Shown here piece after piece: positions 338-60,245 of a DNA stretch of 60,387 nt (position 1 is its first letter; the number at the start of each line of letters is the position of its first letter). Location: contig JAFRXO010000046.1 in the NCBI GenBank assembly GCA_017443465.1, positions 1 to 60,387 on the forward strand, read 5' to 3'. Under the pieces are notes generated by a model. The model was not told the DNA's origin. It was given only the letters and a program-made list of their open reading frames with translations, and did no database searches. Source of the stretch: Bacteroidales bacterium. Lineage in GTDB: Bacteria > Bacteroidota > Bacteroidia > Bacteroidales > UBA932. The translations under genes and the position numbers were made by a program.

Positions 338-361
338 TGTCAGGACCATTTTTAGAATCAT

Positions 362-3082
362 ATGAGATACTCAGTTCTGGCGGCCGCAGTGTGCGCGGCT
401 TTCGCTGTTTGTTCGTGCGGATCCCGCGATGTGCGGACCGAAACCCTTTTGGATACGGGCTGGAGATTCCATAGGGGAGAGGAGCCCGGCTGGTTCACTG
501 ACGCCGTCGCTCAGGGGCCCGCTGCGTTAAAATTCGACGATTCGGCGTGGCAGGAGGTTGAGGTGCCCCATGACTGGGCGATCTACGGCCCCTTCGACGA
601 AGAGAACGATCTCCAGACAACTATGATAATCCAGGACGGCGAGAGGGTACCGCAGAAGCACACCGGCCGGACCGGGGGACTCCCATATGTCGGTGTTGGC
701 TGGTACCGGACAACTTTCAACGTGCCTGCGGGCCGCAGGGCGGTACTGGTCTTCGACGGGGCCATGAGCCAGGCGAGGGTCTGGGTCAACGGGAAGCAGG
801 TGGCATGGTGGCCGTGTGGCTACAACTCCTTCTGGTGCGACGTGACGGATGCCCTGGAAGGCCGGAAGAACACTCTGGCGGTGCGGCTGGAGAACCTGCC
901 ACAATCATCCAGATGGTATCCCGGCGCAGGCCTGTTCCGAAACGTCCATCTCATTGTGACCGGCGAGGCCAGGATTCCGGTCTGGGGAATACAGGTGACT
1001 ACTCCTCAGGTCAGTGCATCTTCGGCCACTGCATATGTAAGGACTACGGTCGAGGGTGCCGGGACCGATGAGGGCGGCAAGAAAGGAACCACCGTACGCA
1101 CAACCATTTACAGCCCCGCCGGGGAGGTTGTGGCGACCGGGGAGGCAGAGACGGGGCAATCAGAGACCGGCAGCTCCAGCAGCAGCACCACCGGCAGCTC
1201 CACCACCTCCATCGCCGAGACCAGCCTTACCATAAGCAACCCGCAGCTCTGGAGCCCATCCAGCCCGAACCTGTACATATGCACATCCGAAGTCCTCGTG
1301 GGCGGCAGGGTAGTGGACCGCAGCTCAGTCAGCTTCGGCTTCCGTAAAGTCGAATTCTCCCCCGAAAGGGGAATGCTCTTAAACGGCGAGCCACTGAAAT
1401 TCCAGGGCGTCTGCATGCATCATGACCTCGGCCCACTCGGCTCCGCAGTCAACGAAAGCGCCATCAGGCACCAGGTCGAGATGCTCAAGGATATGGGCTG
1501 CAACGCCATACGCACTTCGCACAACATGCCCGCCCCTGAACTTGTCCGCATATGCGACCAGACCGGAATGATGCTGATGGTCGAGCCGTTCGACGAATGG
1601 GACAAGGCCAAGTGCAAGAACGGTTATCACCTCTTCTTCGACGAATGGGCCGAAAAAGACATGGTCAACATGATCCGCCAGTTCCGCAACAGCCCCAGCG
1701 TGGTGATGTGGAGCATAGGCAATGAGGTGCCCACCCAGAGCTCCCCGGACGGAGTGAAAGTAGTCGAATTCCTACAGGACATATGCCATCGTGAGGATCC
1801 TACCCGCCCGGTTACCTGCGGGATGGACAGGGTTGACGACATCCTCAAGAACGGGTTCGGCGCCGCGCTGGACATCCCCGGGATCAACTACCGCACATTC
1901 AAATATCTAGAAGCATATACGACTCTTCCCCAGGGACTTATCCTCGGCTCGGAAACCGGTTCCACTATTTCCTCCCGCGGGGTTTACAAGCTCCCGGCCG
2001 AGAAACGCTTCGGCGCCATGGACCCCGACCACCAGTGCTCTGCATATGACCAGGACGCCGCCTGGTGGTCCAACACTCCGGATGTGGATTTTGCCCTTGC
2101 GGATGACTATCCCTGGACCCTCGGCCAGTTCGTCTGGACCGGATGGGACTACCTCGGAGAACCCACTCCATATGGGATCAATTCCTGGCCGAACCATTCT
2201 TCCATGTTCGGCATAGTGGACCTGGCATCGATTCCGAAAGACCGCTACTGGCTCTTCCGCTCTGTCTGGAACACCGGATCCCCGACCCTGCACGTGCTTC
2301 CTCATTGGAACTGGGAAGAAGAGGCTGCCGGCAAGGGCGGCAAGCTGGACGTCCCGGTGTACGTTTACACTTCCTGGCCTGAGGCCGAGCTCTTCGTCAA
2401 CGGGGTCTCGATGGGAAGGGTACGCAAGACATCCCGCGTTGACTATGCCAAAGGCGGCCGCCTCTACAACACCGGCCGCGTCGCGGAGCGCTTCAAGAAA
2501 GAGGCAAAGCCCTCTGGGACATATGGTTCCTGGGCCACTGCGACGGACGGACGCACCCAGGGCGGACAATGCGAACCGCTCGACGGACGATACAGGCTCA
2601 TATGGCCGGCCGTCCCGTATCAGAGCGGAGAACTGAAAGTGATCGCATATGACCAGAACGGCGCGGCGGTTGACACGGCATATGTCCGCACTGCCGGAGC
2701 TCCGGACCACATAGTCTTGACGGCAACTTGCGGGAACTATTCGGAGCTCTTCGACGGGAAGCCGGAGCAGAGCGTCTCGGGCGGGCTCGATGCCGGAAGC
2801 AAAGATCTGCTCTATGTCACGGCTTCGGTAGTGGACAAGGACGGAAACCTCTGTCCGGAAGCATCTGACCTGCTGTCATTCAAGGTCTCCGGACCGGCTT
2901 CGTTCAGGGCCGCGGCGAACGGAGACCCGACCTGCCTCTATCCCTTCCATGAGCCGCAGATGCCAGTCTTCTCCGGAAGGGCGACTGTAATCGTATCAGC
3001 CTCCAAATCAAGCGGAAACGCCGTTCTGGAGGCCTCGGCGCCCGGACTGAAGTCCGCCAGCCTCCCGATAGAGGTGAGGTGA
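362..3082 (+). CDS. Exported GH2 beta-glycosidase (beta-galactosidase-like lipoprotein)
   Basis: This 906-aa exo-glycosidase of family GH2 begins with a lipoprotein signal whose lipobox ends at Cys19, so it is probably anchored in an outer or periplasmic membrane leaflet. It has an N-terminal jelly-roll (about 25-200), an immunoglobulin-like domain, a TIM barrel (about 330-620) and C-terminal beta-sandwich domains. The acid/base Glu sits in SIGNEVP (about E455) and the likely nucleophile in LGSETGS (about E531). The substrate could be a beta-galactoside or beta-glucuronide; the motifs do not decide. A Ser/Thr-rich stretch (about 260-290) interrupts the immunoglobulin-like domain. The ATG lies inside a CATATG and follows the -7 element at the right distance. 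The gene stands upstream of the ATP synthase operon but has its own promoter and is functionally unrelated to it. Confidence 0.9.
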   Translation: MRYSVLAAAVCAAFAVCSCGSRDVRTETLLDTGWRFHRGEEPGWFTDAVAQGPAALKFDDSAWQEVEVPHDWAIYGPFDEENDLQTTMIIQDGERVPQKHTGRTGGLPYVGVGWYRTTFNVPAGRRAVLVFDGAMSQARVWVNGKQVAWWPCGYNSFWCDVTDALEGRKNTLAVRLENLPQSSRWYPGAGLFRNVHLIVTGEARIPVWGIQVTTPQVSASSATAYVRTTVEGAGTDEGGKKGTTVRTTIYSPAGEVVATGEAETGQSETGSSSSSTTGSSTTSIAETSLTISNPQLWSPSSPNLYICTSEVLVGGRVVDRSSVSFGFRKVEFSPERGMLLNGEPLKFQGVCMHHDLGPLGSAVNESAIRHQVEMLKDMGCNAIRTSHNMPAPELVRICDQTGMMLMVEPFDEWDKAKCKNGYHLFFDEWAEKDMVNMIRQFRNSPSVVMWSIGNEVPTQSSPDGVKVVEFLQDICHREDPTRPVTCGMDRVDDILKNGFGAALDIPGINYRTFKYLEAYTTLPQGLILGSETGSTISSRGVYKLPAEKRFGAMDPDHQCSAYDQDAAWWSNTPDVDFALADDYPWTLGQFVWTGWDYLGEPTPYGINSWPNHSSMFGIVDLASIPKDRYWLFRSVWNTGSPTLHVLPHWNWEEEAAGKGGKLDVPVYVYTSWPEAELFVNGVSMGRVRKTSRVDYAKGGRLYNTGRVAERFKKEAKPSGTYGSWATATDGRTQGGQCEPLDGRYRLIWPAVPYQSGELKVIAYDQNGAAVDTAYVRTAGAPDHIVLTATCGNYSELFDGKPEQSVSGGLDAGSKDLLYVTASVVDKDGNLCPEASDLLSFKVSGPASFRAAANGDPTCLYPFHEPQMPVFSGRATVIVSASKSSGNAVLEASAPGLKSASLPIEVR

Positions 3083-3090
3083 CACATATG

Positions 3091-4687
<1,597 letters not shown>

Positions 4688-4699
4688 CAGCGCGGTCAT

Positions 4700-6816: not shown

Positions 6817-6820
6817 GCAT

Positions 6821-7375
6821 ATGGATACGGGTCTGATTTCTTCAAGATATGCCAGGGCACTCCTGCTTCTCGTCGATGAGACGGGTGGCGGGGAGGAGGT
6901 GCTGGCCCAGACCCTTACTCTGTCCCAGGCCCTGTCGTCGGTTCCGCAGCTGCGTCGCGTGCTGGAAGGGCGGGGGGATCTGCCCGTTTCCGGCAAACTG
7001 CAGCTTTTCGAGTCGGTCCTCGGGGGCAAAAAGCTCGCTCCGGAACTCAGGCAGTTCATCACTCTGGTGATACGCTCCGGGCGTGTTTCATTGCTCCGTT
7101 ACATCTTTTCTTCCTTCCAGAGGCTCTGGTACCGGTCCAGGAAGATCAAACTGTGCCATCTGACTGTGACGTCTCCGTCGCGCTCCCTGGAGGAGCAGCT
7201 GGAGGAGTTCGTCAGGAAGAACACCGGCTGTTCGGTGCAGATGACCACCGAGGTCAAACCCGACATAGTCGGGGGCTTTGTTTTCGAGGTGGATGACTGG
7301 CTGATAGATGCTTCCGTCAAGACACAGCTCGAAACTATCCGGCGCGGATTCATGGAGATGAATGCCGCCCATTAA
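6821..7375 (+). CDS. atpH: F1 ATP synthase subunit delta
   Basis: This 184-aa delta (OSCP-like) subunit joins F1 to the b stalk. It opens with the family pattern ISSRYARALL and ends with the conserved PDIVGGFVFEVDD...DASVKTQLETIRR region. The length is normal. The ATG is inside a CATATG, and the gene lies tightly between atpF and atpA. Confidence 0.94.
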   Translation: MDTGLISSRYARALLLLVDETGGGEEVLAQTLTLSQALSSVPQLRRVLEGRGDLPVSGKLQLFESVLGGKKLAPELRQFITLVIRSGRVSLLRYIFSSFQRLWYRSRKIKLCHLTVTSPSRSLEEQLEEFVRKNTGCSVQMTTEVKPDIVGGFVFEVDDWLIDASVKTQLETIRRGFMEMNAAH

Positions 7376-7401
7376 TTGAGATCATTTGAATATTTAAGCA
7401 T

Positions 7402-8985
7402 ATGGCAGATAGCATAAGGCCCAGCGAAATCTCCCAGATCCTCCTTCAGCAGCTGAAGGGGATTGGCAGCGATGCACGCTTCGACGAGATGGGCAAGGTC
7501 CTTCAGGTCAGCGACGGAGTCGCGCGTATGTGGGGACTGGTTAACGCCGAGGCAGGCGAGCTTCTCGAATTCGAAAGCGGGGTCATGGGAGTCGTCATGA
7601 ACCTTGAGGAGGACAATGTTGGTGCGGTCCTTCTCGGCCCGACTGATGAGGTCACTGAAGGGATGACCGTCCGCAGGACAGGGAGGATCGCCTCTATCCG
7701 TGTGGGTGAGAACATGCTCGGAAGGGTAGTGGATCCCCTGGGCAATCCGCTTGACGGCAAGGGCCCGGTCACCGGGGATTTCGTGGAGATGCCTCTTGAG
7801 AGAAGGGCTCCCGGAGTCGTTTTCCGCCAGCCCGTTAACGAACCTCTCCAGACCGGTATCAAGTCGATAGACGCCATGATTCCAATCGGAAGGGGACAGA
7901 GGGAGCTGATTATCGGCGACCGCCAGACAGGAAAGACTTCCATAGCGATCGACACCATCATCAACCAGCGTCCCGGCTTCGAGGCAGGTAATCCGGTCTA
8001 TTGCATATATGTCGCTGTAGGCCAGAAGGCTTCGACAGTGGCCGCTATTGTGGAGAGCCTGCGTGAGCGTGGAGCAATGGACTATACGATAGTCGTTTCC
8101 GCTACTGCGGCCGATCCTGCCGCGCTTCAATACTATGCTCCTTTCGCGGGTGCTGCCATAGGGGAGTATTTCCGCGACACCGGACGTGACGCCCTGGTGG
8201 TATATGATGACCTGTCCAAGCAGGCCGTGGCCTATCGCGAGGTGTCCCTGATCCTGCGCCGTCCTTCGGGACGCGAGGCTTATCCGGGTGACGTGTTCTA
8301 CCTTCATTCCCGTCTTCTCGAGAGGGCGGCTAAGATCATCGACCAGCAGGAGGTTGCCGAGCAGATGAACGACCTCCCGGAGTCCCTGAAGGGGAAGGTG
8401 AAGGCAGGAGGTTCTCTGACTGCCCTTCCGATCATCGAGACCCAGGCTGGAGACGTCTCAGCCTATATTCCGACCAATGTGATTTCCATCACCGACGGCC
8501 AGATCTACCTGGAGTCCTCCCTGTTCAACCAGGGGTTCAGGCCTGCCATCAATGTCGGAATCTCGGTGTCCAGGGTTGGAGGAAGCGCACAGGTGAAGAG
8601 CATGAAGAAGGTCGCCGGTACCCTGAAGATCGACCAGGCCCAGTACGAGGAGCTGGAAACTTTCTCAAAGTTCTCCTCCGATGTGGACAAGGTGACTGCC
8701 ATGACTCTGGACAAGGGGCGCAAGAACAACCAGCTCCTTATCCAGCCGAAGTATTCGCCTATGCCTGTCGGTGAGCAGATTGCGATTCTCTATTGCGGCA
8801 CCCATGCCCTGATGGAGGATATCCCCATTGACAAGGTGCGTGCGTTCCAGGATTCTTTCCTGGAGAGGATGCGTTCTTCGCATACTGATGTCCTTGAGGC
8901 CCTCTCTGAAGGAAAGTTCGATGAATCACTGACTTCGGTTATCGAGTCCGAGGCCTCGATGGTAGTTTTGCAGTTCAAGCAGTAG
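7402..8985 (+). CDS. atpA: F1 ATP synthase subunit alpha
   Basis: This 527-aa non-catalytic nucleotide-binding subunit has the P-loop GDRQTGKT near residue 172 and the conserved stretch [20 protein letters not shown]. The beta-barrel, nucleotide-binding and helical C-terminal domains are all intact. The ATG lies in a CATATG. The stop codon is one base before atpG. Confidence 0.98.
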
Positions 8986-11989: not shown

Positions 11990-12754
11990 CTATCCCAGCA
12001 CTACATCGAGGACCATCATCAAGGCGAACCCGAGGGCGAAGCCGATGGTGCCGATGTTGGAGTGCTCTCCTTGGGAATACTCTGGAACCAATTCTTCTAC
12101 AACGACATAGAGCATGGCTCCAGCAGCGAATGCCAGCATGTAGGGCATAATGCCAAGGATGGAGGTCGCCAGCAGGAGGACCAATGCTCCGCCGATAGGT
12201 TCGACGATTCCGCTGAGCGTTCCGATGCCGAAGGCTTTCGGGCGGGAGTTGCCTTCGGCTCTGATAGGCATTGAGATGATTGCTCCCTCAGGGATATTCT
12301 GGATGGCGATACCAAGGGACAGGGCCAGCGCTCCTGCCATGTTGAAATCAGCCGTCAAGGCTCCGGCAATGGCTACGCCCACCGCCATTCCCTCCGGGAA
12401 ATTGTGGATGGTTACTGCCAGGGCCAGTTTGGCTGTGCGGGACAGCCGGCTCTGAGGGCCTTCCGCCTCTCCACTTGCGTGGATATGAGGCGTTACGTAG
12501 TCAACCAGCAGCAGGAAAGCGAATCCGGCCAGCAGGCCGATGGTGGGAGGAACGACGGCTGAGGTTCCGGACCCCATCTCGATGGCGGGGATTATCAGCG
12601 ACCACATGGAAGCGGCAACCATTACTCCGGACGCAAAGCCCAGCAGGATTTTCTGCACCAGCGGAGGCATCTCTTTCTTCATGAAGAACACGAAGGCCGA
12701 TCCCAGGGCAGTCCCCAGGAATGGAATCATCAATGCTGTGAATACCGGATTCAT
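11990..12754 (-). CDS. ZIP-family metal transporter (GufA/ZupT-like)
   Basis: This 254-aa inner-membrane protein has about eight helices. It carries the ZIP metal-site motifs HNFPEG in helix 4 and IQNIPEG in helix 5. The Gln in place of His in the second motif is usual in the GufA branch. It probably imports zinc, iron or manganese. The start lies in a CATATG. It is 24 nt downstream of the GH36 gene and 41 nt upstream of the isomerase homologue. A metal supply role for the isomerase is possible but only inferred. Confidence 0.85.
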   Translation of the reverse strand: MNPVFTALMIPFLGTALGSAFVFFMKKEMPPLVQKILLGFASGVMVAASMWSLIIPAIEMGSGTSAVVPPTIGLLAGFAFLLLVDYVTPHIHASGEAEGPQSRLSRTAKLALAVTIHNFPEGMAVGVAIAGALTADFNMAGALALSLGIAIQNIPEGAIISMPIRAEGNSRPKAFGIGTLSGIVEPIGGALVLLLATSILGIMPYMLAFAAGAMLYVVVEELVPEYSQGEHSNIGTIGFALGFALMMVLDVVLG

Positions 12755-12778
12755 ATGTCGTCGTTCTGCCTCTTCTGT

Positions 12779-21696: not shown

Positions 21697-21699
21697 CAT

Positions 21700-22935
21700 A
21701 TGCCTCATCTTCTCTCTATCGATCTCTATCAGACTGCCGGTATAGGAGTCCTGGCCCTTATGCTGGGATTCCTGTTCACCAGGACGGTCCCGTTCCTGAA
21801 ACGCTACTGCATCCCTGCTCCTGTCTCCGGGGGACTGGTGGTCTCGCTCCTGATGCTGCTGGTCCATTCCATATGCGGGGTGGAGTTCCAGTTCGACGGC
21901 ACTATCAAGGACGTCTGCATGATGCTCTTCTTCACTTCGGTGGGATACCAGTCCAACCTCCTGTCCCTCAAGCGTGGAGGACGGCCACTTGTGGTTATGC
22001 TGGCCCTTGTGACGGTCCTGATAGCGGTCCAGAATCTCCTGTCTACGGGAATCGCCCGGGGAATGGGCCTGGATCCCCTTGTCGGAATGGCGGCAGGATC
22101 CATCCCTATGTGCGGCGGGCACGGGACTTCGGGAGGATTCTCTCCCGTATTGGAGAGCATGGGCCTTCAAAGCGCCGCTTCGATTACTATGGCTTGCGCC
22201 ACTTTCGGCCTGGTGGCTGGCTCCCTGATAGGCGGGCCACTGGCTGAGAACCTGATCCGGAAGCGCCATCTTGCGGAAGAATCTGGCTCTACCGACATTG
22301 TCTCCGGGATGGAAAGCAGTACTGCCGATCCGGCCTACAAGGAACTTCGTCCTGAGTCGGAAGAAAAATCTTTCCGCGGATATGCCAAGGCAGTCTTCAT
22401 CCTGGTCCTGACAATGGCTCTGGGATCATGCCTGAGCCATCTTCTTGCCGGTACCGGAATCACTTTCCCGACCTATTTCGGTTCTCTGATCATGGCGTGC
22501 CTGATCCGTAATGTCTGCGAGGTGAGCTCAAGGGGAAGGGATGTGCTTGGAATGGACAGGATCATATCATTCGGAAACATATGCCTGTCCCTGTTCCTGG
22601 GTATCGCCATGGCAACGCTGAAGCTCTGGGAGCTGGTAAGCCTGGTGCTCCCCCTGTGCGTCATCCTTCTGGCCCAGGTCCTTTTCATAGCCCTGTTCGC
22701 GAGGTTCGTCGCCTTCCCGGTCCTGGGGAGGGATTATGATGCTGCGGTTTTTATCAGCGGACTGTGCGGCTTCGGCCTTGGAGCGACTCCCAACGCCATG
22801 GCCAATATGTCGGCGGTCTGCCTGAAATACCGTTACGCTACCGTTCCTTTCATCATCATCCCGATAGTAGGTGCGATGTTCGTGGACCTGATCAATACAG
22901 GAGTCATTACATTGTTCCTCAATCTGCTTCCCTGA
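21700..22935 (+). CDS. gltS: Sodium/glutamate symporter
   Basis: This 411-aa secondary transporter has about ten to twelve helices. The GltS family pattern is clear: PVSGGLVVSLLML, FFTSVGYQSN, GSIPMCGGHGTSGGFSPVLE and the matching second repeat GLCGFGLGATPNAMANM. It most likely takes up glutamate with sodium. It is coupled to creD (3-nt gap, start in CATATG). Its 3' end overlaps the convergent heparinase gene by 17 nt. Confidence 0.93.
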   Translation: MPHLLSIDLYQTAGIGVLALMLGFLFTRTVPFLKRYCIPAPVSGGLVVSLLMLLVHSICGVEFQFDGTIKDVCMMLFFTSVGYQSNLLSLKRGGRPLVVMLALVTVLIAVQNLLSTGIARGMGLDPLVGMAAGSIPMCGGHGTSGGFSPVLESMGLQSAASITMACATFGLVAGSLIGGPLAENLIRKRHLAEESGSTDIVSGMESSTADPAYKELRPESEEKSFRGYAKAVFILVLTMALGSCLSHLLAGTGITFPTYFGSLIMACLIRNVCEVSSRGRDVLGMDRIISFGNICLSLFLGIAMATLKLWELVSLVLPLCVILLAQVLFIALFARFVAFPVLGRDYDAAVFISGLCGFGLGATPNAMANMSAVCLKYRYATVPFIIIPIVGAMFVDLINTGVITLFLNLLP

Positions 22936-28936: not shown

Positions 28937-28972
28937 ATGTTTAAAGCGTTATTTGCGGTTATACCTGTCTTA

Positions 28973-35252: not shown

Positions 35253-35276
35253 AAACACCGCAAAAGACCGATTCAT

Positions 35277-40235: not shown

Positions 40236-40244
40236 TCCAAGCAT

Positions 40245-41222
40245 ATGACTATCTGTGAGATAAAGGAGTTTGTAAAGGACGACCTGGCACGTGTCAGGGA
40301 GCTTATAGATTTTTCTCTCAGAAGCGGGATCGAGCTCCTCGACGACACGAACAGGGCACTCCTGTCGCGTCCTTCGAAAGGACTCAGGCCCCTCCTTTCC
40401 ATTCTCACTGCATATGCCTGCGCCGGAGAGCTGTCAGAGGACAGCTATCGTTTCGCCGCTGCTGTCGAGCTCCTTCACAATGCGACCCTCCTTCATGACG
40501 ATGTGGCCGATGAGTCTCCAACCCGAAGGGGAAAGCCGACGGTAAATACCATCCTGGGCAGTTCCGCGTCTGTGCTTCTCGGGGACTTCTGGCTGGTCAG
40601 GGCGATGGACAGGATCCTCGATTCCCCTCAGGGAACATTGATGATCCGTTTCTTCGCCAAGACCCTGTCCGACCTCGCCGAGGGAGAGATGCTCCAGCTT
40701 CAGAAAGCCGCGTGCGGAGACACCAGCGAAGAGGATTACATGAAGATAATATACTACAAGACCGCATCCCTCTTCGAACTTTCGGCAGTCAGCGGAGCGA
40801 AATCTGTAAATGCCTCTGAAGAAATGGTTTCCGTGGCCAGGACATATGCCCGTAACCTGGGGCTGGCTTTCCAGATAAAGGATGACATATTCGATTATTC
40901 CGCAGGTGCCGAGATCGGGAAACCTGTCGGGTCGGACCTGTTGGAGCAGAAGATAACCCTGCCGCTGATCGCGGCAATGGCAGCTTCCACCCCATCTCAG
41001 GAGGCGGAGATCCGAAGCATGGTGGCTGAAATTCCCAACAATCCCTCCCGGGTGGATGAGATCAGGGAATTCGTCTTCAGCCATAATGGGATAGAGTACT
41101 CTGTAAAGCGGATGGAAGTGTTGCTTGAAGAGGCAAAGGCCGCCCTGGCTGCATTCCCTGAGGGCGAGGGCCGGATGAGGCTCGAGGCCGTAGCTGATTA
41201 CGTCTCGGAAAGGAAAATTTGA
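40245..41222 (+). CDS. Polyprenyl diphosphate synthase
   Basis: This 325-aa all-alpha isoprenoid chain-lengthening enzyme has the first Asp-rich motif LLHDDVADES and the second KDDIFDYS. The product length cannot be read with confidence. A long-chain quinone side chain or a sesqui/octaprenyl product is likely. The ATG is part of a CATATG, and the gene lies between the LOG gene and holB. Confidence 0.92.
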   Translation: MTICEIKEFVKDDLARVRELIDFSLRSGIELLDDTNRALLSRPSKGLRPLLSILTAYACAGELSEDSYRFAAAVELLHNATLLHDDVADESPTRRGKPTVNTILGSSASVLLGDFWLVRAMDRILDSPQGTLMIRFFAKTLSDLAEGEMLQLQKAACGDTSEEDYMKIIYYKTASLFELSAVSGAKSVNASEEMVSVARTYARNLGLAFQIKDDIFDYSAGAEIGKPVGSDLLEQKITLPLIAAMAASTPSQEAEIRSMVAEIPNNPSRVDEIREFVFSHNGIEYSVKRMEVLLEEAKAALAAFPEGEGRMRLEAVADYVSERKI

Positions 41223-41237
41223 CGGAAAAGACTGCAT

Positions 41238-42248
41238 ATGCGTTTTTCGGACATACAGGGCAATGACGAGGTCAAGCGCACGCTGATGACTATGGTCGAC
41301 AGCGGCAGGATACCTCATGCCCTCATGTTCCACGAAGACGAGGGCAGCGGAGCTTTCGCCATGGCCCAGGCATTCCTCGGCTATCTTTTCAGCCATGCAT
41401 ATGCAAACGATGCGGAGCTGGGCAGGGTGTCCAAGATGATCCATCCGGATGTCCACTATGTGTTCCCGCTGAATTCCGGGACCAAGGTGACCGGCAAGAT
41501 CGAAGAGCTCAATCCTGACAAATTCATGGAGTGGTTCCGCGAACTTGCCATCTCAAAGCCCGATTTCCTGGAGAGCGACCTGTACGAAGCCATTGGCATT
41601 GCCGGGAAGTCCGGAACCATAGCGTCAGGAAGCGCCAGGTACATCCTCGACAAGCTGATGCTGTCATCTGTCGAAGGCGGATGGAAGGCAGTAGTCATAT
41701 GGCTCCCGGAGAAAATGAACGCATCTGCGGCCAACCGTCTCCTGAAGATTATCGAAGAGCCGCCTTCGATGACTGTCTTCATCCTCATTACCCAGAATCC
41801 TGACAACGTGATCCAGACCATTACCTCGCGTTGCCTGAGGTTGAGGATAATGCCTCGACGCGGCATCCTGGACAAGGCTGACTACCAGATGAACCTCGAC
41901 CTGTTCAGGCAGCTGTGTTCCGCCCTGCTTTCCCATGACCTGGACGCATGCCTTGACGCCGGGGAAGCTATGGCCTCATTGGAATCCAGGGACAGACAGA
42001 AGGCATTCTGCCGTTTCTCATGCGATTGTCTCAGGAGGATTTTCCTGATCCAGCATGGAATGGATTCCCTGGCAGGACAGTACGAGTCGGACGAGGATTA
42101 TTTCACCATGCTCGCCGGCTCATTCAAAAAGAGTTTTCCACATGCTGCCATGCCCCTTTTCGACAGGAGCAGCAGGCTGGTTGACCGGAATGTCAACCAG
42201 AAAATCCTGTTCTGCGACCTGGTGGGCAGGCTGTACAACATACAATAG
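41238..42248 (+). CDS. holB: DNA polymerase III delta' subunit
   Basis: This 336-aa clamp-loader AAA+ subunit has a degenerate P-loop (EDEGSGAFAMAQA), as expected for delta', plus the RIPHALMFHE opening and the IEEPPSMTVFILITQNPDNVIQTITSRC sensor region. It is 3 nt from ricT, and holB-ricT adjacency is also known in Bacillus. The start is in a CATATG. Confidence 0.92.
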   Translation: MRFSDIQGNDEVKRTLMTMVDSGRIPHALMFHEDEGSGAFAMAQAFLGYLFSHAYANDAELGRVSKMIHPDVHYVFPLNSGTKVTGKIEELNPDKFMEWFRELAISKPDFLESDLYEAIGIAGKSGTIASGSARYILDKLMLSSVEGGWKAVVIWLPEKMNASAANRLLKIIEEPPSMTVFILITQNPDNVIQTITSRCLRLRIMPRRGILDKADYQMNLDLFRQLCSALLSHDLDACLDAGEAMASLESRDRQKAFCRFSCDCLRRIFLIQHGMDSLAGQYESDEDYFTMLAGSFKKSFPHAAMPLFDRSSRLVDRNVNQKILFCDLVGRLYNIQ

Positions 42249-47750: not shown

Positions 47751-47778
47751 ATGATGAAGGATTCGGCTACAAACGGCG

Positions 47779-47786
47779 TAAAAGTA
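47779..47786 (-). promoter_or_regulatory. -7-like element of the sigma-fecR operon
   Basis: TACTTTTA on the minus strand resembles TAnnTTTG (last base differs) and is 28 nt before the sigma start. Confidence 0.4.
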
Positions 47787-47856
47787 TGTAAAAACTACTA
47801 AAACCCAAAATAATGAAGTACTTTTCCACGAAATGATTGTCTTTATAAATAAAAGG

Positions 47857-47888
47857 TTTGACGTAAACAATCAAATACCATAGATTTA
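47857..47888 (+). promoter_or_regulatory. Promoter of the susC-susD operon
   Basis: A TTTG -33 box at 47857-47860 and a TAGATTTA -7 box at 47881-47888 are 20 nt apart, close to the Bacteroidota consensus. Transcription would start near 47895. An additional ECF-type element cannot be told by eye. Confidence 0.5.
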
Positions 47889-47915
47889 ATCATGTTGTTA
47901 ATTAAACAGTAGCAA

Positions 47916-50900
47916 ATGAGAAAAAAAACTTTTCTGTCGATGCTTGCCTTTGTGGCAATCTTCGTTAGCATGAGTGTTACAGCCGTTGCCCAGCAACGTG
48001 TGACAGTTCAATTGAGAAATGCCAGTCTGAGACAACTCTTTACAGCAATCGAGAAGCAGACTGACTATAGGTTTTCCTATCGTGACGTCAATATCGATTC
48101 CCGCAGGGATATAACAATCGATATGACAAACGTGCCGGTAACGGAAGTCCTTGATGCTGCTTTCAAAAACCGCCCTCTGCGTTACAATGTGGTTTCTGAC
48201 AAGTCGATTACCATTCTGGAAAAACAGACGGGAGTACAAGCTGGTTCAAAGAGGACTGTCGTAGGCCGTGTTACGGACTCAAATGGTGAACCTCTGCCCG
48301 GAGCGGGAGTCGTTGAAAAAGGCACCGGAAATGGTGCGGCTACCGATGTGGATGGCAATTATATCATTGAGGTCAAAGGAGACAATCCTGTCCTTGTTTT
48401 TTCATTTGTGGGATTTGCTGATATAGAGGCTCCAGTCTCCGGACAGATTGTCAACGTAACCATGGATTCTAGCACGAATAACCTGAATGAGCTGGTATTT
48501 ACTGCTCTAGGTATGAAACGGTCCGAAAAGATTCTCAGTTATGCTGCCCAGACGGTAAAAGGAGATGATCTCCAGACGGTAAAGGGAGCAAGCATGGGGA
48601 CCAGTATGACAGGTAGGGTTTCAGGCTTGGCCGTCTATAACTCAACGGAATTCGGCAAGGAACCGACTCTGTCTCTCCGCGGAGGAACCCCGCTTCTGGT
48701 CCTGAACGGAGTCCCGACGTACCTGACCCTGACGGATATCAATGCTGATGATGTCGAAAGCATGACCGTATTGAAGGGAGCAACTGCCACTGCTTTGTAC
48801 GGATCCCGGGGAGGCAATGGAGCCATAATGATCACGACAAAGAAGGGTGGTGCCGAAGGTTTTCATGTGACTGTGAACTCCTCGACGATGATATTTGCCG
48901 GAAATCTTGCTCTTCCCGAGGTGCAGCATTCCTATAGCTCCGGTTATGGGGGCAAATATAACACGGATGACGAGGTCTGGGGAGATAAGCTTGATATTGG
49001 CCGGACTGCAAAGCAATATAATCCAGTTACTTACGAATGGGAAGAACAGGAATTGACCTCAAAAGGGAAGAACAACCTGAAAAACTTCACGCAGTTCTCA
49101 TTCACTACCGATAACACGGTAAGTGTCTCGCAGCAAGGTCGTAATGGAAGTTTCTATTCTTCAATTAATTTCAATCATATTAAAGGCCAGTACCCCAATG
49201 AGAATGGGAATGGTGTGAAATACAGTCTCGGTGGTACGGCCAAGATCGGGGATAAAGTTACGATCGAGGGGTCGATGGGTTTCACGAACAAGGGCTTTTC
49301 CAATATTTCCGGAATAGGTTACGGAACCCAGGGATATATCTACAACATGCTTGTGTGGATGGGAAGCGAATGGGATGTCCGTGATTACCGTGACTATTGG
49401 ATCGTTCCGAATGAAAAGCAGAACTGGATGAGGACATCCTGGTACGACAATCCCTGGATGATGGCATACGAAAAGATAGAGAGAACCAACAACTCCAAAT
49501 TCAATGGCATGGCCTCTCTCAAATGGCAGATTCTTCCATGGATGAGATTAATTGTAAGGGGTGGATATGAGTGGCGCGATTACGCGACGACTAAACGTGC
49601 TCCGCTGGGTATTAATTCCAACCGTGATTTCGGCTCTTCATCCAAAGGTTTCTATTCTGAGAATGCCGACAGGAGATTCTCAACAACTGACGATGCCATC
49701 ATTCAGATTGAGAAATCTTTCGGAGACTTTTCCATTGATGCATTGGCCGGAGGATCGATTTATTACTGGAACCAACGTAAAATAGCCGCAGAGACTGTCG
49801 GAGGTATTTCTGTTCCTGGTTTTTATTCCATTAAGGCTTCTGTCGGAACGCCCAAGATTACTCCGACAAGAGAGAACCAAGAGGTCCAGAGTCTTTATGG
49901 ACAGTTGACTTTCGGCTGGAAGAATGCTGTCTGGCTTGACTTGACAGGCCGTAACGACTGGTCTTCAACCATGCCTGCAAATGCTTCTTCGTATTTTTAT
50001 CCTTCTGTCGGATTGAGCTGGATTGTCTCAGAGTTGATTCCCATGCCATCATGGCTTGATTTCTGGAAACTCCGTGCGTCCTGGGCCGTTTCAAAGAATG
50101 ACCTTGACATCTATGATACGAGTATGGACTATTCCATCGATACTCCTGCCTGGGGCAGTTTGAATTCGGCATATTACCCGACAAGCATGCTTGGGGATGT
50201 CAAGCCTGTGACAGACAGGACATACGAAGTTGGAACGAGGGTGGATTTCCTGAACGGAAGGATTTCACTGGATGCTACTTATTACAATAAGTTGAACTAC
50301 AACAACACCTCGGAAACAACGATTTCGGCCATGTCCGGATTCACCTCCGTCCTGATGAATACGGATCTCCAATATGTGCGAAGGGGATTCGAGTTCACAG
50401 TGAAGGCCACTCCTGTAGTTACCTCAGATTTTGAGTGGAACATACAGACCAACTGGGCGAAATCCAACCGCTACTATGCCAAGATAGATGAAGAATATAC
50501 TTCGAAGCATCCTTGGGTGTATGTAGGTGCCAGGGCAGATTGGAAATCGACCAAGGAATTCACTTATGACCCTGACGGGAACATAATAAACAATTCATCC
50601 GGTTTCCCGATAAAAAGCAACTACGAGACGAAAATCGGCAACACCGATCCCGATTGGGTCTGGGGATTGATGAACACGTTCAGGTACAAGAACCTTTCCC
50701 TTTCGATCGCGCTTGATGGCCGAATAGGCGGTATGTCTGAATCCACCACTAACTACAGGATGTGGCAGACCGGAGTCCATACGGGCACGGATAATAAATG
50801 GCGTTATGAAGAAGTAGTCAATGGGAAACAGACTTTTGTCGCCCCTGGAGTCGTTGTAGTATCGGGAAGTGCTACTTACGACGAGTTCGGCAATATCCTA

Positions 50901-51218
50901 ACTGATGACCGTGTCTTCGCCCCTAATGATAAGGTCGTTTCCTACGAGACCTATATTAAGAAATACTGGGTCAAGAACATGGCGTTATTCAATTATGATG
51001 AGACCTTCTTCAAGATAAGGGAAGTCGCGTTAACATACAAGATACCGTCAGTATTCTGCAAGAAGATCGGTATGAACGCCACAACGGTATCCCTTATCGG
51101 ACAGAATCTTCTGCTTTGGTGCAAAGAATACCGTAACTCTGACCCGGACGTCGCCTCCGACAACCTAAATTCACCGTCGGTCAGATACATCGGCGTTGAC
51201 CTCAAGTTTGACTTTTAA
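47916..51218 (+). CDS. SusC-like TonB-dependent receptor with STN signalling domain
   Basis: This 1100-aa outer-membrane glycan importer begins with a Sec signal and an STN domain (about 28-105, LRQLFTAIEKQTDYRFSY), then a carboxypeptidase-regulatory-like domain (about 110-190, VVGRVTDSNGEPLPGAGVVE), a plug (SLRGGTPLLVLNGVPTYL, MTVLKGATATALYGSRG) and a 22-strand barrel. The STN domain should contact FecR and signal inwards. It is divergent from the sigma gene and followed after 11 nt by susD. This stretch is AT-richer than its neighbours and has no CATATG. Confidence 0.94.
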   Translation: MRKKTFLSMLAFVAIFVSMSVTAVAQQRVTVQLRNASLRQLFTAIEKQTDYRFSYRDVNIDSRRDITIDMTNVPVTEVLDAAFKNRPLRYNVVSDKSITILEKQTGVQAGSKRTVVGRVTDSNGEPLPGAGVVEKGTGNGAATDVDGNYIIEVKGDNPVLVFSFVGFADIEAPVSGQIVNVTMDSSTNNLNELVFTALGMKRSEKILSYAAQTVKGDDLQTVKGASMGTSMTGRVSGLAVYNSTEFGKEPTLSLRGGTPLLVLNGVPTYLTLTDINADDVESMTVLKGATATALYGSRGGNGAIMITTKKGGAEGFHVTVNSSTMIFAGNLALPEVQHSYSSGYGGKYNTDDEVWGDKLDIGRTAKQYNPVTYEWEEQELTSKGKNNLKNFTQFSFTTDNTVSVSQQGRNGSFYSSINFNHIKGQYPNENGNGVKYSLGGTAKIGDKVTIEGSMGFTNKGFSNISGIGYGTQGYIYNMLVWMGSEWDVRDYRDYWIVPNEKQNWMRTSWYDNPWMMAYEKIERTNNSKFNGMASLKWQILPWMRLIVRGGYEWRDYATTKRAPLGINSNRDFGSSSKGFYSENADRRFSTTDDAIIQIEKSFGDFSIDALAGGSIYYWNQRKIAAETVGGISVPGFYSIKASVGTPKITPTRENQEVQSLYGQLTFGWKNAVWLDLTGRNDWSSTMPANASSYFYPSVGLSWIVSELIPMPSWLDFWKLRASWAVSKNDLDIYDTSMDYSIDTPAWGSLNSAYYPTSMLGDVKPVTDRTYEVGTRVDFLNGRISLDATYYNKLNYNNTSETTISAMSGFTSVLMNTDLQYVRRGFEFTVKATPVVTSDFEWNIQTNWAKSNRYYAKIDEEYTSKHPWVYVGARADWKSTKEFTYDPDGNIINNSSGFPIKSNYETKIGNTDPDWVWGLMNTFRYKNLSLSIALDGRIGGMSESTTNYRMWQTGVHTGTDNKWRYEEVVNGKQTFVAPGVVVVSGSATYDEFGNILTDDRVFAPNDKVVSYETYIKKYWVKNMALFNYDETFFKIREVALTYKIPSVFCKKIGMNATTVSLIGQNLLLWCKEYRNSDPDVASDNLNSPSVRYIGVDLKFDF

Positions 51219-51229
51219 TTGACTGAAAG

Positions 51230-52756
51230 ATGAAAAGAATCATATATTTTGCACTTGGAATCCTGACCTGCTGCTGGGGTTGCACAGACAAGTTCGAATC
51301 ATATAATACGAACCCCAACACGACTTCCAATGCTACATCTTCCCTTCTGGCGACGGATCTTATACTGTCAACCATGGATGATGTATATGGACTGGCGATG
51401 CAAAAGCGAAACAGGCTTCATCTCTACGATGACATGCTCAGCAAGTACATAACTTACAAAGAGTCTGTCGGGTATTCTTACAACCTTTTGGGACGCGCCA
51501 GCTATACCGATCTGTACATGGAGAAACTCAATAATGTCGGCAAGATGGTCGGGTATGCGAAAGAAGGTGGTATGAGAAACTCCTATGAAGGCGTCGGCCA
51601 CGTTCTCAGGGCATTGAAATTCTTCGATCTTACCATGCGGGTAGGAGATATCCCCTACAGTGAAGCCATGCAAGGAGAATCCGGAATACAGTTCCCGGCT
51701 TATGATACCCAGAAAGAAGTGATCCTGGGGCTGCTTGACGAGCTCGAAAAAGCCGATGCCCTCTTGGCCGAGGGAGCTGCTTTTGCAGGTGACCCTGTTT
51801 ACGACGGAGATCCCCAAAAGTGGAGAAAAGCCGCCAATTCTTTGGCACTCAAGATATTGATTAATTTGTACAACAAGACATCCGACTCTGACCTTAATGT
51901 CAAAGGACGTATGCAGGCCTTGCTGGGTAAACCTATCTTCACGTCAAACGATGACAACCTCCAGCTGAAACACTCGAGTGACAAGACACAATGGTATCCA
52001 TTCTACGAGGATGGAAACAACTACATTGATTTTGTGTTCCTCTCATCAACGCTTGTTGATTCCCTGAAAGCATATGGAGACAGACGCTTGTTCTATTATG
52101 CCGAACCTGCGGTGAACATGGCATCTAAACCCGCCGAATGGGATTCTTACCAGGGTATTGACCCTGTCATTCCTTTTGCATCTGTCCAGGACCAGATGAT
52201 AAGTGGAGATTACTCAATGCTGAACAAACGCTATTACAAAGACCCCAAGGGAGAGCCGACATATGTATTGAGTTATAGTGAGTTGAACTTCATCCTCGCC
52301 GAGGCAGCAGTGCGCGGCCTGATTTCCGGAAGCGCCAAAAGCTATTACGACAAGGGTGTCCGGGCAGCGATGGAGTTCGTGTCCGATAATACAGCGGCTG
52401 CATATAACCATGGAATGGCTCTTGACAATGCTTATATCACCTCATACCTGTCTGGTGGCAGGGGTGCTTTCCCCTCATCGTCACAGGCCCAGATCAAACA
52501 GATCATCGTCCAGAAATACCTCTCTGAATTCTTGCAGGCACCTTTCAACGCATGGTATGAGTATCGCCGTACCGGTTATCCGGAGCTGGAGATCAATCCT
52601 TCGACAAATGAAAACATTCCGTCAACGAAGATGCCAGTACGGTGGATGTATCCGGATGACGAATACACCTACAACTCCGAGAATGTAAAGGCTGCCGTTG
52701 ACCGCCAGTTCGGAGGGAACGATGATAATAATCAGGTGATGTGGATCCTGCAATGA
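51230..52756 (+). CDS. SusD/RagB-family glycan-binding lipoprotein
   Basis: This 508-aa lipoprotein (lipobox Cys in CCWGCTDKF) is of the SusD-like type with TPR helices and loops. Family pieces include EGVGHVLRALKFFDLTMRVG, IPYSEAMQGE, DPQKWRKAANSLALKI and LSYSELNFILAEAAVRG. It captures glycan at the cell surface and hands it to the SusC transporter. It is 7 nt upstream of the GTG of the next gene. Confidence 0.94.
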   Translation: MKRIIYFALGILTCCWGCTDKFESYNTNPNTTSNATSSLLATDLILSTMDDVYGLAMQKRNRLHLYDDMLSKYITYKESVGYSYNLLGRASYTDLYMEKLNNVGKMVGYAKEGGMRNSYEGVGHVLRALKFFDLTMRVGDIPYSEAMQGESGIQFPAYDTQKEVILGLLDELEKADALLAEGAAFAGDPVYDGDPQKWRKAANSLALKILINLYNKTSDSDLNVKGRMQALLGKPIFTSNDDNLQLKHSSDKTQWYPFYEDGNNYIDFVFLSSTLVDSLKAYGDRRLFYYAEPAVNMASKPAEWDSYQGIDPVIPFASVQDQMISGDYSMLNKRYYKDPKGEPTYVLSYSELNFILAEAAVRGLISGSAKSYYDKGVRAAMEFVSDNTAAAYNHGMALDNAYITSYLSGGRGAFPSSSQAQIKQIIVQKYLSEFLQAPFNAWYEYRRTGYPELEINPSTNENIPSTKMPVRWMYPDDEYTYNSENVKAAVDRQFGGNDDNNQVMWILQ

Positions 52757-52763
52757 CGCTGTT

Positions 52764-56234: not shown

Positions 56235-56255
56235 CCCTAAATAGAAGCCGGTTGC

Positions 56256-56304: not shown

Positions 56305-56374
56305 CCATAGATTGTGTAAACAATCATAGTTATACTTCTCAGGAATTATCAGCGATTATTTATAAAAATATCCT

Positions 56375-56382
56375 TATCTTTC
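56375..56382 (+). promoter_or_regulatory. -7-like element of the aldo/keto reductase operon
   Basis: TATCTTTC resembles TAnnTTTG and lies 25 nt before the ATG at 56408. Confidence 0.45.
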
Positions 56383-56407
56383 ACTTTCGTATAAACCACA
56401 TTCAATT

Positions 56408-57400: not shown

Positions 57401-57406
57401 AGCCAT

Positions 57407-59407
57407 ATGAAAAAAGCAGCACTGGCATTCGCAGCGTTACTGCTGACCGCCGTCCTCGCCGGGGCAGTTGACCTGAAGACCAAGCCCGACTGGAAGACCA
57501 GTCCATATACGGGCTACACCCGCGCTACCTGGGAAGAGATCTCCCAGAAGATAATCAGCGGAGTGATGCAGCGCGTCGATCCCGAGACCGGTATATTCAC
57601 TTTCCCGATTTCGGAGGGGAAGTATGCCGAGACAAGGGACCTCACCTCAGAAGAGCGCATCCGGGAGATGGAGCGTATCATGATAGGAGTGGTCACTTAT
57701 TATGTCGGCACCGGGAAAGACAAGGTGCCGGGCTACAAGGGCTCCATTACACAGCCTTTCATCAATGCCTTCATCCATGGTACCGATCCGAACGATCCGC
57801 TCTATTGGGGAGAGCCTGCGAAGGCTGACCAGACTGGTTCGGGTTATATACTCGGACTGTACATGGCTCCTGAACGCTTCTGGGATCCCCTGACGGATGT
57901 CCAGAAGAAGAACCTGATGACCTATCTGGAAAAGAACAACGTGAATGCTACATGGGACAACAACCATCATCTTTTCCATCTGGTCACTTCCCGTTTCCTG
58001 GAGACTCACGGAGGTGAGGCCAGCAGGGAAAAGCACACCAAGACCCTGGACAGGCTCCTTGGATGGTACAGGGGAGACGGCTGGTACATCGACGGAAACA
58101 ACAGGGGATTCGATTATTACAACCTCTGGGGATTCCAGCTTTACCTGAATTGGATCCTGAAATTCGACCCGGTCTGGGCCGGCCAGTTCGGGGACAAAAT
58201 CCGCTGGAACGCCTCACGTTTCATGGAGACCGCTCCCTGGCTCTACTCCCGCTCCAGCGGTCATATTCCATGGGGCAGGAGCCTCACTTACCGGTTCGCG
58301 GCATCAGGAGCCATAGGCTGGAACATAATCAACGGGGACACCACCCTTTCCCCGGGACTTGCCAGGCGCCTTCTTTCAGGAGACCTGAAGTACTTCATTG
58401 ACAATGGCAGCCTGACTGATGACGGCCTTCTTCCGATAGGCTATCACGGAGAGAATCTCGACCTTGCGGAGAGATACAATTCTCCCGGAGATCCGTATTT
58501 CGCAATGGAAGGCCTTGCAGTCCTTCTGCTTCCGGAGAACCATCCTTTCTGGACTGCTGTAGAGGAACCGTGCCCTGCTGACAACAAGCCCGGCAGGAAG
58601 ATAGTCCATGGCGGCAATTTCGTGCTCAGCGCCCGCTCTGACGGGGATTCGCGTAACTATTTCGCTGGCCAGACATTTGACCGTACCTATTGGCAGGCCG
58701 GTGCGAAATACCAGCAGGATGCCTATTCGGCAGACCTGGGATTTTGTGTCTCTGGCGGCGACAGCGAGCCTACGGGACAGGGACAGAGCGGTTACAAGAT
58801 TGGCGGGCGGGACTGGATGTATCATTGGCGGTCCACAGCCCTGCTTTTGGAAGAAGACCACATAGCCAGCAGCTACCCGATGGTCCCGGACTACAACATG
58901 ACCAGGGGGAAGGATGAGGGGACTCCGGAGTTCGAATGCGAACACGTTTATTCCCATATGCTTATCGGGGACAAGGGCGAAGTGCACGTGCTGTGGCACG
59001 ACTATCCTACTCCGGTGCGCCTGCGCCTCGGCGGTTATGGGATCAACGTGCCCTTCGGCTCAACCCCGGCTGAAAGCCGCGACGGAGGGATGCTGATAGT
59101 TTCCTCAGGGAACTACCGTTCTGTTTCCAAGCAGCTTTATGGTCCTGAGGGCACACTCGAATGCAGATTCCTCCAGCCCGGCGAAGGCTGGAATAACACA
59201 CACCTTTTCGGAGGACTCGGCGCATGGCCCCAGTGGGAGAGCAAGGAGGGCGTTCCTCCATTCACCCCGGTGGTGATCTATGAAGACGGTTCCGCTCACG
59301 GGAGTGTAGTGAACCCGTCAATAAGCGTCAACGCCACTAAGGACGGCCTCAGGATCGTCTTCGAAGGCAAGACATATGACATCAGGATAATTGACAGACC
59401 CATTTGA
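57407..59407 (+). CDS. Exported DUF2264 protein, possible glucuronidase
   Basis: This 666-aa Sec-exported protein matches the DUF2264 type, an alpha/alpha-toroid fold related to GH105-like enzymes with an extra C-terminal beta-domain. WDNNHHLFHLVTSRFLE and GDGWYIDGNNRGFDYYN are the most conserved-looking pieces. Some members are said to be exo-beta-glucuronidases (GH154), but I could not check this and treat it as likely only. It lies in the operon AKR-DUF2264-VOC. The start is in a CATATG. Confidence 0.8.
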   Translation: MKKAALAFAALLLTAVLAGAVDLKTKPDWKTSPYTGYTRATWEEISQKIISGVMQRVDPETGIFTFPISEGKYAETRDLTSEERIREMERIMIGVVTYYVGTGKDKVPGYKGSITQPFINAFIHGTDPNDPLYWGEPAKADQTGSGYILGLYMAPERFWDPLTDVQKKNLMTYLEKNNVNATWDNNHHLFHLVTSRFLETHGGEASREKHTKTLDRLLGWYRGDGWYIDGNNRGFDYYNLWGFQLYLNWILKFDPVWAGQFGDKIRWNASRFMETAPWLYSRSSGHIPWGRSLTYRFAASGAIGWNIINGDTTLSPGLARRLLSGDLKYFIDNGSLTDDGLLPIGYHGENLDLAERYNSPGDPYFAMEGLAVLLLPENHPFWTAVEEPCPADNKPGRKIVHGGNFVLSARSDGDSRNYFAGQTFDRTYWQAGAKYQQDAYSADLGFCVSGGDSEPTGQGQSGYKIGGRDWMYHWRSTALLLEEDHIASSYPMVPDYNMTRGKDEGTPEFECEHVYSHMLIGDKGEVHVLWHDYPTPVRLRLGGYGINVPFGSTPAESRDGGMLIVSSGNYRSVSKQLYGPEGTLECRFLQPGEGWNNTHLFGGLGAWPQWESKEGVPPFTPVVIYEDGSAHGSVVNPSISVNATKDGLRIVFEGKTYDIRIIDRPI

Positions 59408-59408
59408 T

Positions 59409-60245
59409 ATGAGAAAATTGTTTTTCGCCATAGCGGCCCTGTTGTTCTCAGCGTCCGCTTTCGCGGCGGTCCCGGACATGTACGGCATCGCTAAAATGAC
59501 CTACAGGGTTTCATCCATCGAGATGGTCAGGGATTATTACGGCCGTTTCCTGGGTTACAAAGAAGCGTTCAGCTACCCCTCTGACAAGGGGACGGTTTAT
59601 GCTTTCAAGGTGAATGACAGGCAGTTCATCGAGTTCTACGTGGACAGCGAGGCACCTTCCAGGAAGGACAAACTTGCGAGCGTTTCCATACAGGTTGCAT
59701 CTGCGGACAAGATGCACGGGTTCCTCGTCGAGAAGCAGTGGCCTGTGTCTGAAGTCAGCACTGACGGAGCGGGAGAAAAGGTCGTTACCACGAAGGATGC
59801 CGACGGAAACGTGATTGAATTCGTGGAATTCACCCCGAAGGGAAAACATATGAAATGTGCAGGGAAATATCTGTCAGACAGCAGGATATCTACGCGCATC
59901 CACCATGCCGGCCTACCTGCGGGCAAGATTGACGGAAATGATCCTTTCTGGATCGGCCTGCTCGGAGGGAAGGAAATCGTACGATACGAGGGCGAAAGGG
60001 GGATCCATTACATCACCATCGGACTCGGAACGGAATGCGTCGAGCACTACTTTCCTTCCGACGTGTCTTTCGGGCACGTATGCTTCCAGACTATGGACAT
60101 GCAGGAGACGCTCATGACTCTCTATTCCCGCGGAGGTTACAAGATGTCGAAGCCCTCGATAGGGATGACCAAGCGCTGGAACCTTAACATCTTCACCCCA
60201 GAAGGGGCAAAGGTCGAATTCGCCGAGCCGTACTCGTTGCGATAA
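59409..60245 (+). CDS. Exported VOC (glyoxalase-like) protein
   Basis: This 278-aa protein has a Sec signal (KLFFAIAALLFSASAFA) and two vicinal-oxygen-chelate halves (about 25-150 and 160-275). Candidate metal ligands are the His in TRIHHAGLP, the Glu in QFIEFYV and VEFAEPYS, and the His in FGHVCFQT. The ORF could extend to a TTG at 59391, but the ATG at 59409 fits. It is 1 nt after the DUF2264 stop. Export of a VOC protein is unusual; the reaction is unknown. Confidence 0.78.
   Translation: MRKLFFAIAALLFSASAFAAVPDMYGIAKMTYRVSSIEMVRDYYGRFLGYKEAFSYPSDKGTVYAFKVNDRQFIEFYVDSEAPSRKDKLASVSIQVASADKMHGFLVEKQWPVSEVSTDGAGEKVVTTKDADGNVIEFVEFTPKGKHMKCAGKYLSDSRISTRIHHAGLPAGKIDGNDPFWIGLLGGKEIVRYEGERGIHYITIGLGTECVEHYFPSDVSFGHVCFQTMDMQETLMTLYSRGGYKMSKPSIGMTKRWNLNIFTPEGAKVEFAEPYSLR

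Follow-up and report, generated by a model that had tools for sequence, protein, structure and literature searches.

The question raised by the 60,387-nucleotide stretch of rumen Bacteroidales DNA analysed here (contig JAFRXO010000046.1 of assembly GCA_017443465.1, below called the window) is why one palindromic hexamer, CATATG, recurs along its whole length. A sequence-only reading had put the number of copies at about 114, far above chance, and had likened the word to HIP1 (GCGATCGC), the highly iterated palindrome (HIP) of cyanobacteria, which is described together with the alternate HIPs in the part of Elhai (2015; PMC4390886) drawn on here. The exact count is 114, and the intact hexamer is favoured in every context tested, whichever base must change, and it is maintained.

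Abundance of CATATG in the window and the genome

The copies, the first at position 359 and the last at 59847–59852, average ∼1.9 per kb and are spread over genes of many functions and between genes. Base composition predicts 12.5 copies, and dinucleotide shuffles of the window (n = 100) give a mean of 13.3 (standard deviation 3.56, maximum 25). Under an order-2 Markov model the expectation is 29.5, and the excess over it is the largest among the 64 hexamer palindromes. A maximal-order Markov model expects 91.7 copies, a high value because the 5-mers of CATATG are themselves inflated by the word, and CATATG is still the top hexamer in the window (z 4.9).

The window is contig 12 of the assembly of its source genome, G000 (2,645,555 bases in 81 contigs; bin 96% complete), and the enrichment extends through that genome rather than giving way to a normal count elsewhere: CATATG occurs 4230 times in 2.65 Mb, compared with 79 occurrences of the mirror word GTATAC. 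At 1.71 per kb it has the highest ratio of G000 to relatives of any hexamer (15.7), the baseline of relatives being those 50 of 80 named loci with GC content 0.49–0.58. These 80 are the best of 590 records, and the closest named records among them are rumen Bacteroidales metagenome-assembled genomes (MAGs). Near variants had been described as rarer, which is correct within the genome, where CATATC, CATATA and CATATT stand at 0.35–0.37 per kb against 1.71, but not relative to the relatives, since measured against them they are not depleted (ratios 1.15, 1.73, and 1.07).

In a genus sample of 400 genomes (G000 and 399 others, drawn from a larger group), more than 2000 copies are found only in G000, G423 (3353, in a bin 79% complete), and G211 (2028); the other 397 genomes hold 12–1602. 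One further scoring of the 400 left 28 unscored, G423 among them. The genus of G000 is probably Candidatus Cryptobacteroides, because records so named are nested within the same clade as G000 in a tree of AcrB sequences. When all 64 palindromes are scanned against codon shuffling in 101 samples (first 150 genes for G000; samples with <9 kb of coding sequence skipped), CATATG reaches z 30.6 in G000, 27.4 in G423, and 11.6 in G115, with 3.7 as its highest value in the remaining samples; the maximum for any other palindrome is 7.7 (TCCGGA in G211). G254 and G296, considered as further cases for their high CATATG/GTATAC ratios, were rejected: in sampled stretches their z over codon shuffling is −0.3 and 0.7, and their GTATAC counts are low. 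G228, which also has a high ratio, gives z 1.9.

Other words also depart from expectation. GTATAC is strongly avoided in G000, in G423 (39 copies), and in G254, G296, and G228, which is perhaps restriction avoidance. Many genomes of the group show a mild excess of TCCGGA after codon shuffling. In three closely related rumen MAG loci (L022, L057, and L089) AATATT occurs 25–27 times against 10–11 under the order-2 Markov model (∼2.4–2.5-fold), an excess that falls to z 2.3–3.0 after codon shuffling. TATATG is raised in G000 (ratio 1.73); because G423 has no clear rise (0.458 vs 0.408 per kb), an interpretation of this as C-to-T loss at a modified cytosine is not relied on.

CATATG is the top palindrome (order-2 Markov) in the window and in each of nine 20-kb stretches of G000, and it is not the top palindrome in the short contigs L008, L015, and L017. 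These three, together with L189 and L203, are contigs binned with G000 that lack CATATG or are poor in it. L200 (contig 33), with open reading frames (ORFs) that appear CarA/CarB-like and CTP-synthase-like from their translations, has two copies in 15 kb, and its near-sites, where a single synonymous change separates the sequence from CATATG, are filled in 2 cases and unfilled in 14. All six contigs are probably mis-binned or recently imported. They were excluded from the fill, log-odds, dipeptide, density, spacing, neighbour, and 101-sample shuffle analyses and retained in the codon-context counts for Ile, Tyr, and His, which used all G000 stretches. Stretches with at least 100 N were also excluded from the density, spacing, and neighbour analyses. 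In the near-site fill comparison by locus or gene, the G000 row omits the six contigs and, in addition, L194 and L202.

Reading frames, silent positions and proteins

Genes were taken as the longest non-overlapping ORFs, with no gene finder, and some gene and frame assignments are accordingly doubtful. The genes of the window contain 101 copies, whereas 1000 synonymous-codon shuffles average 22.2 and never exceed 34. The frames CAT-ATG, NCA-TAT-G, and NNC-ATA-TGN account for 14, 62, and 25 copies against 8.3, 8.5, and 5.4 expected from the shuffles; outside these frames, 7 copies lie across start codons and 6 are non-coding. The predominance of NCA-TAT-G, already remarked on from the sequence, is what might be cited in favour of codon, codon-pair, or amino-acid usage as the cause, given that 62 of the 101 coding copies share that one frame. 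Such usage would act in one frame and in coding sequence only, whereas the excess spans three frames that use different codon pairs, occurs at gene starts and between genes, and remains 4.6-fold after synonymous shuffling. Over 240 kb of G000 (the window and the nine stretches) genes contain 377 copies against 81.7 after shuffling, and the frames, at 53 vs 30.5, 232 vs 31.5, and 92 vs 19.7, each exceed the maximum of 200 shuffles. Moreover, codon choice differs in the contexts that complete the word: across G000 stretches, ATA encodes Ile in 199 of 235 C_TG contexts (85%) but in 24% elsewhere, Tyr is TAT in 448 of 468 CA_G contexts (96%) but in 46% elsewhere, and His before ATG is CAT in 114 of 122 cases compared with 48% elsewhere. 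An origin in codon or amino-acid usage is thus exceedingly improbable.

Start codons are affected in the same way. CAT precedes the ATG start codon in 46 of 254 genes in G000 and 12 of 102 in G423, as opposed to 12 of 513 in relatives. The following sites in the window overlap a start codon, three of them belonging to ORFs that are displaced by antisense ORFs in the longest-ORF gene set:

359..364, plus strand: start of ORF 362-3082, GH2 glycosidase (Pfam)
6818..6823, plus strand: start of ORF 6821-7375, dropped from the longest-ORF set
7399..7404, plus strand: start of ORF 7402-8985
12752..12757, minus strand: start of ORF 11990-12754
21697..21702, plus strand: start of ORF 21700-22935
28934..28939, minus strand: start of ORF 26504-28936
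35274..35279, plus strand: start of ORF 35277-38384, AcrB family (Pfam)
40242..40247, plus strand: start of ORF 40245-41222, dropped from the longest-ORF set
41235..41240, plus strand: start of ORF 41238-42248, dropped from the longest-ORF set
57404..57409, plus strand: start of ORF 57407-59407, DUF2264 (Pfam)

Intergenic DNA carries 1.04 copies per kb in G000 and 0.095 per kb in relatives (24 vs 6 copies). Divergent intergenic regions are as rich as other intergenic regions (1.03 per kb in G000; 1.49 vs 1.4–2.8 in G423), indicating an effect on DNA and not only on transcripts. The excess in three frames, at gene starts, and in intergenic DNA likewise indicates that whatever is responsible acts on DNA and not on codon pairs.

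The strength of the preference was measured as fill, the share of near-sites that carry the motif base, which can be scored at five positions of the word. At positions 1–5 fill is 92, 90, 95, 89, and 97% in G000 and 36, 14, 36, 16, and 34% in the loci of the 50 relatives. The corresponding log odds for the motif base in G000 versus relatives are 3.0, 4.0, 3.4, 3.7, and 4.0 (mean 3.6), and those in G423 range from 2.2 to 3.9. Synonymous-site scoring is feasible for 59 of the 64 palindromes, and in the 58 others the same statistic has a standard deviation of 0.34 and a maximum of 0.65, with GTATAC lowest at −1.44. The near-equality of the log odds at five positions indicates that the intact hexamer is favoured, and not one type of mutation. 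Positions related by the dyad (2 and 5; 3 and 4) have close log odds, as would be expected for recognition by a symmetric dimer. Deamination of methylated CGTACG, or any single mutation bias, was rejected as the cause since both transitions and transversions are favoured, at every position, and repair of the Vsr type was rejected on the same ground; Vsr context repair acts on one mismatch type. A longer motif was likewise rejected, since the flanks vary: extended by one base on each side, the word most often reads GCATATGC, which makes up 102 of 852 both-strand counts.

No regularity of spacing was found in 814 gaps between G000 sites, which have a mean of 549 and a coefficient of variation of 1.10 and are not significantly non-exponential (Kolmogorov–Smirnov p 0.09); gaps >3.2 kb number 5 against 2.4 expected. 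A spacing-based signal, whether a mismatch-repair set point or self-marking, was rejected because of this irregularity. Pooling G000 and G423 gives a fill of 0.89 where another site lies within 100 bases, 0.85 at 100–200, 0.82 at 200–400, 0.89 at 400–800, 0.76 at 800–1600, and 0.61 beyond (11 of 18). That fill does not fall near other sites argues against signals needing only one site per kb, and its low value far from other sites suggests imported DNA.

These distances bear directly on the idea that CATATG is a DNA uptake sequence spread by transformation. The uptake sequences of Neisseriaceae and Pasteurellaceae are short words maintained genome-wide at about one per kb; the density of CATATG is of the same order, and a molecular drive of this kind would act in all contexts. 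The known uptake sequences are nevertheless longer and not palindromic, and nearby copies of such a signal should gain little, yet fill here is unaffected by neighbouring copies, being as high within 100 bases as at 400–800. Overall, an uptake sequence appears to be a very unlikely explanation.

The one extended interruption in the window is the following:

47754..52070, no strand: largest CATATG-free gap, 4323 bases between site starts, with a TonB-dependent receptor gene and the start of the next gene

The receptor gene (47916-51218; Pfam) has 0 filled and 3 unfilled synonymous near-sites. In the region of both genes (47916-52756), which we take to be SusC/SusD-like by arrangement, 2 near-sites are filled and 5 are not; the remainder of the window accounts for the other 7 of its 12 unfilled near-sites. 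This site-poor region is probably a recent import.

Protein sequences are shifted along with the enrichment. His-Met occurs 0.75 times per 1000 residues in G000 and 0.83 in G423 but 0.24 in relatives, with His and Met themselves approximately unchanged. Ile-[Cys/Trp] is doubled in G000 compared to relatives, and [Ser/Thr/Pro/Ala]-Tyr-[Ala/Gly/Val/Asp/Glu] stands at 4.19 against 2.77, although part of the excess in these two patterns tracks generally higher Cys/Trp and Tyr in G000.

Origin and conservation among relatives

In the AcrB tree (86 rows) G000 and G423 are sisters (SH-aLRT 100) and adjoin a clade of five named MAGs, the loci of which are without excess (0.11 CATATG per kb). Parsimony on this tree places the gain on the G000–G423 stem. 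G115 lies in a different AcrB clade beside two loci that are also without excess (0.08 per kb), and for this reason at least two origins are likely, one on the stem and one in G115.

The course of the gain was examined in genes at 20–50 kb of the window by comparison with the five sister-clade loci. In 36 site-by-genome comparisons, which are not independent, the site is intact in 1, one base off in 6, two bases off in 16, and further off in 13. With the two strands folded, the changes leading to CATATG cover all nine kinds. If the state of the sister clade is taken as ancestral, this mixture of other forms at the same places points to conversion on the stem by all kinds of base change. Conservation in a close relative, which the sequence-only reading had proposed as a check, is evident between G000 and G423: in 32.6 kb of alignments (86.2% identity), G423 retains 51 of the 61 sites of G000 and G000 retains 51 of the 56 of G423 (84–91%), against 44% for all hexamers taken together. 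In this comparison L218 was removed by the overlap filter, and two of the six blocks (3.2 kb) are 96–98% identical; another comparison, in which L218 was retained, gives 25 of 27 and 25 of 28. The varied outgroup states and the conservation in G423 together indicate a many-sided gain followed by maintenance.

In G115 (57.7% GC) the bias is positive at all five positions, with log odds of 1.7 to 4.0 against AT-richer relatives, and near-site fill is 0.58 compared with 0.09 in two kin loci. The G115 loci (L184, L185, and L263–L267) are also poor in words containing CATG, with 4 CACATG/CATGTG in 140 kb and 6 CCATGG against 45 expected, a restriction-avoidance pattern. The AT-rich G211 (44.6% GC) is perhaps a further gain of the enrichment; its fill is raised at three positions (2, 3, and 5) and not at position 1.

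Possible causes of the enrichment

The resemblance to HIPs, as these are set out in the consulted part of PMC4390886, is close in two respects: a single palindrome far exceeds every other word in over-representation across the whole genome, and, like the alternate HIPs, it is sporadic in some lineages and missing from close kin. The HIP1-like character proposed in the sequence-only reading, here extended to a palindrome enriched genome-wide, independent of frame and maintained, is supported by the frame counts, the enrichment in non-coding DNA, the saturation of silent positions, and the conservation in the sister species. CATATG differs from HIP1 in its host, which is Bacteroidales and not cyanobacteria, in being an AT-rich hexamer without the dinucleotide GC (321 of 852 both-strand copies, or 37.7%, are preceded by G), and in a gain confined, among the genomes sampled, to one species pair together with G115 and perhaps G211. 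Near-complete synonymous saturation and a shift at the protein level are further features measured here. Among the matches listed in the open-licence literature (titles and abstract openings), no CATATG HIP and no HIP in Bacteroidales was found. To our knowledge, why some genomes fill with one palindrome has been an open question since the discovery of HIP1.

The most direct extension of the HIP comparison is that an orphan methyltransferase modifies CATATG and that methylation-directed mismatch repair ratchets up and protects the sites. CATATG is the recognition word of the NdeI and FauNDI restriction-modification systems, so that enzymes for this word do exist, but restriction leads to avoidance and depletion of a word, and here it is enriched. 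Presence of the enrichment in separate clades would suit a mobile gene. The whole of G000 was searched in six frames for five DNA-methyltransferase families in Pfam (PF01555, PF02384, PF02086, PF00145, and PF07669), for which controls were positive in 11, 13, 4, 10, and 11 of 14 known genomes, respectively; the PF02384 search covered G000 only. Ten of the 39 G000 stretches, all <3 kb and 22 kb in total, read as N (contigs 6, 10, 11, 13, 15, 19, 20, 28, 31, and 37; 1.5–2.7 kb), which hides any genes they carry. In this 96%-complete bin there is no match to PF01555, PF02384, PF02086, or PF00145, and the only two matches to PF07669 are below the cut-off of 25.3 bits (20.9 bits each). PF05063 also gives no match in G000, with a silent control. 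In the 79%-complete bin of G423 there is no match to PF01555, PF02086, or PF00145, and a single PF07669 match is below the cut-off. G115 likewise has no PF01555, PF02086, or PF00145 but has one PF07669 match above the cut-off, and G211 has no PF01555, one PF02086, one PF00145, and several PF07669 matches above it. The methyltransferase suggested from the sequence was thus not found among the five families in G000, an absence that is not proven given that both bins are incomplete. Matches in genomes of the genus are limited to 6 of 20 for PF02086, 6 of 20 for PF00145, and 2 of 15 for PF01555, and absence is therefore too common to mark the motif-rich genomes.

In cyanobacteria, HIP1 and the alternate HIPs are generally paired with a matching methyltransferase, while some HIP1-rich genomes have no recognisable CGATCG enzyme, according to the same part of PMC4390886. 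Under the model given there, sites should settle at a set point near one per kb, against which CATATG stands at 1.7 per kb with fill that does not fall near other sites, and the G-meC form of the model requires a GC dinucleotide that CATATG does not contain. Among 14 methylated, lineage-specific motifs of the Bacteroides fragilis group, 6 are depleted and none is enriched, as reported in the part of PMC10333322 consulted. Repair directed by a methyltransferase is consequently considered unlikely here.

A different possibility is that repair or gene conversion is itself biased, with heteroduplex mismatches or new replication errors resolved toward the CATATG strand and without benefit to the cell. 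Such a process would account for the similar bias over all kinds of base change, the random spacing, and the acceptance of amino-acid changes. Since transitions and transversions are both favoured, however, it would require a repair enzyme that reads the whole hexamer. We know of no such enzyme, and no search for repair genes was made. This explanation is regarded as doubtful.

The reading preferred here, tentatively and at somewhat less than even confidence, is that CATATG is a lineage-specific HIP-like genomic word, the sites of which are favoured through selection for a sequence-specific DNA protein. Each CATATG would carry a small fixation advantage independent of its neighbours, and the likeliest cause would be weak selection, across the genome, for sites that a dimeric protein binds or modifies; this might be an organiser of the chromosome or a modifying enzyme from a family other than those tested. 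The driver may have been acquired on the G000–G423 stem and, apparently separately, in G115. A bolder proposal, which we hold as possible but rather less secure, is that a methyltransferase-independent system, passed horizontally among gut Bacteroidales, gives every CATATG a fixation advantage large enough to saturate the silent positions of a whole chromosome and to alter proteins; no enzyme is known to us for a genome-wide word drive of that kind. From these comparisons we infer a ranking in which selection for dimeric-protein sites comes first, hexamer-biased repair or conversion second, and methyltransferase-directed repair third, the last because no enzyme and no sign of a set point were found.

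Several observations weigh against the preferred reading of selection for protein-binding sites. No driver protein was found by the search, which was aimed at methyltransferase families only. The intergenic bias (log odds ∼2.0 in G000 and 2.9 in G423, with 6 copies in relatives) is weaker than the synonymous value of 3.6, which argues against a wholly uniform drive at the DNA level unless intergenic DNA is constrained. Words with one mismatch are not depleted overall (ratios of 0.65–1.73 to relatives). In G115, avoidance of CATG alone raises CATATG in the His-Met frame; it can account for the perfection of that frame (position 3) and does not explain the bias at positions 1, 2, 4, and 5. Finally, to read the log odds as a scaled fixation bias requires that the relatives represent an unbiased reversible baseline, and selection cannot be told apart from biased repair or mutation on these data.

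CATATG in these genomes provides a clean HIP-like case outside cyanobacteria, with an excess in sister species, a sister clade without it, and a probable second origin, and so far without a link to ordinary DNA methyltransferases. CATATG-free sequence in G000 is probably foreign or mis-binned and may serve as a practical marker. Something acts on CATATG across the chromosome of G000 and G423, and the system allows the gain and loss of sites to be polarised base by base.

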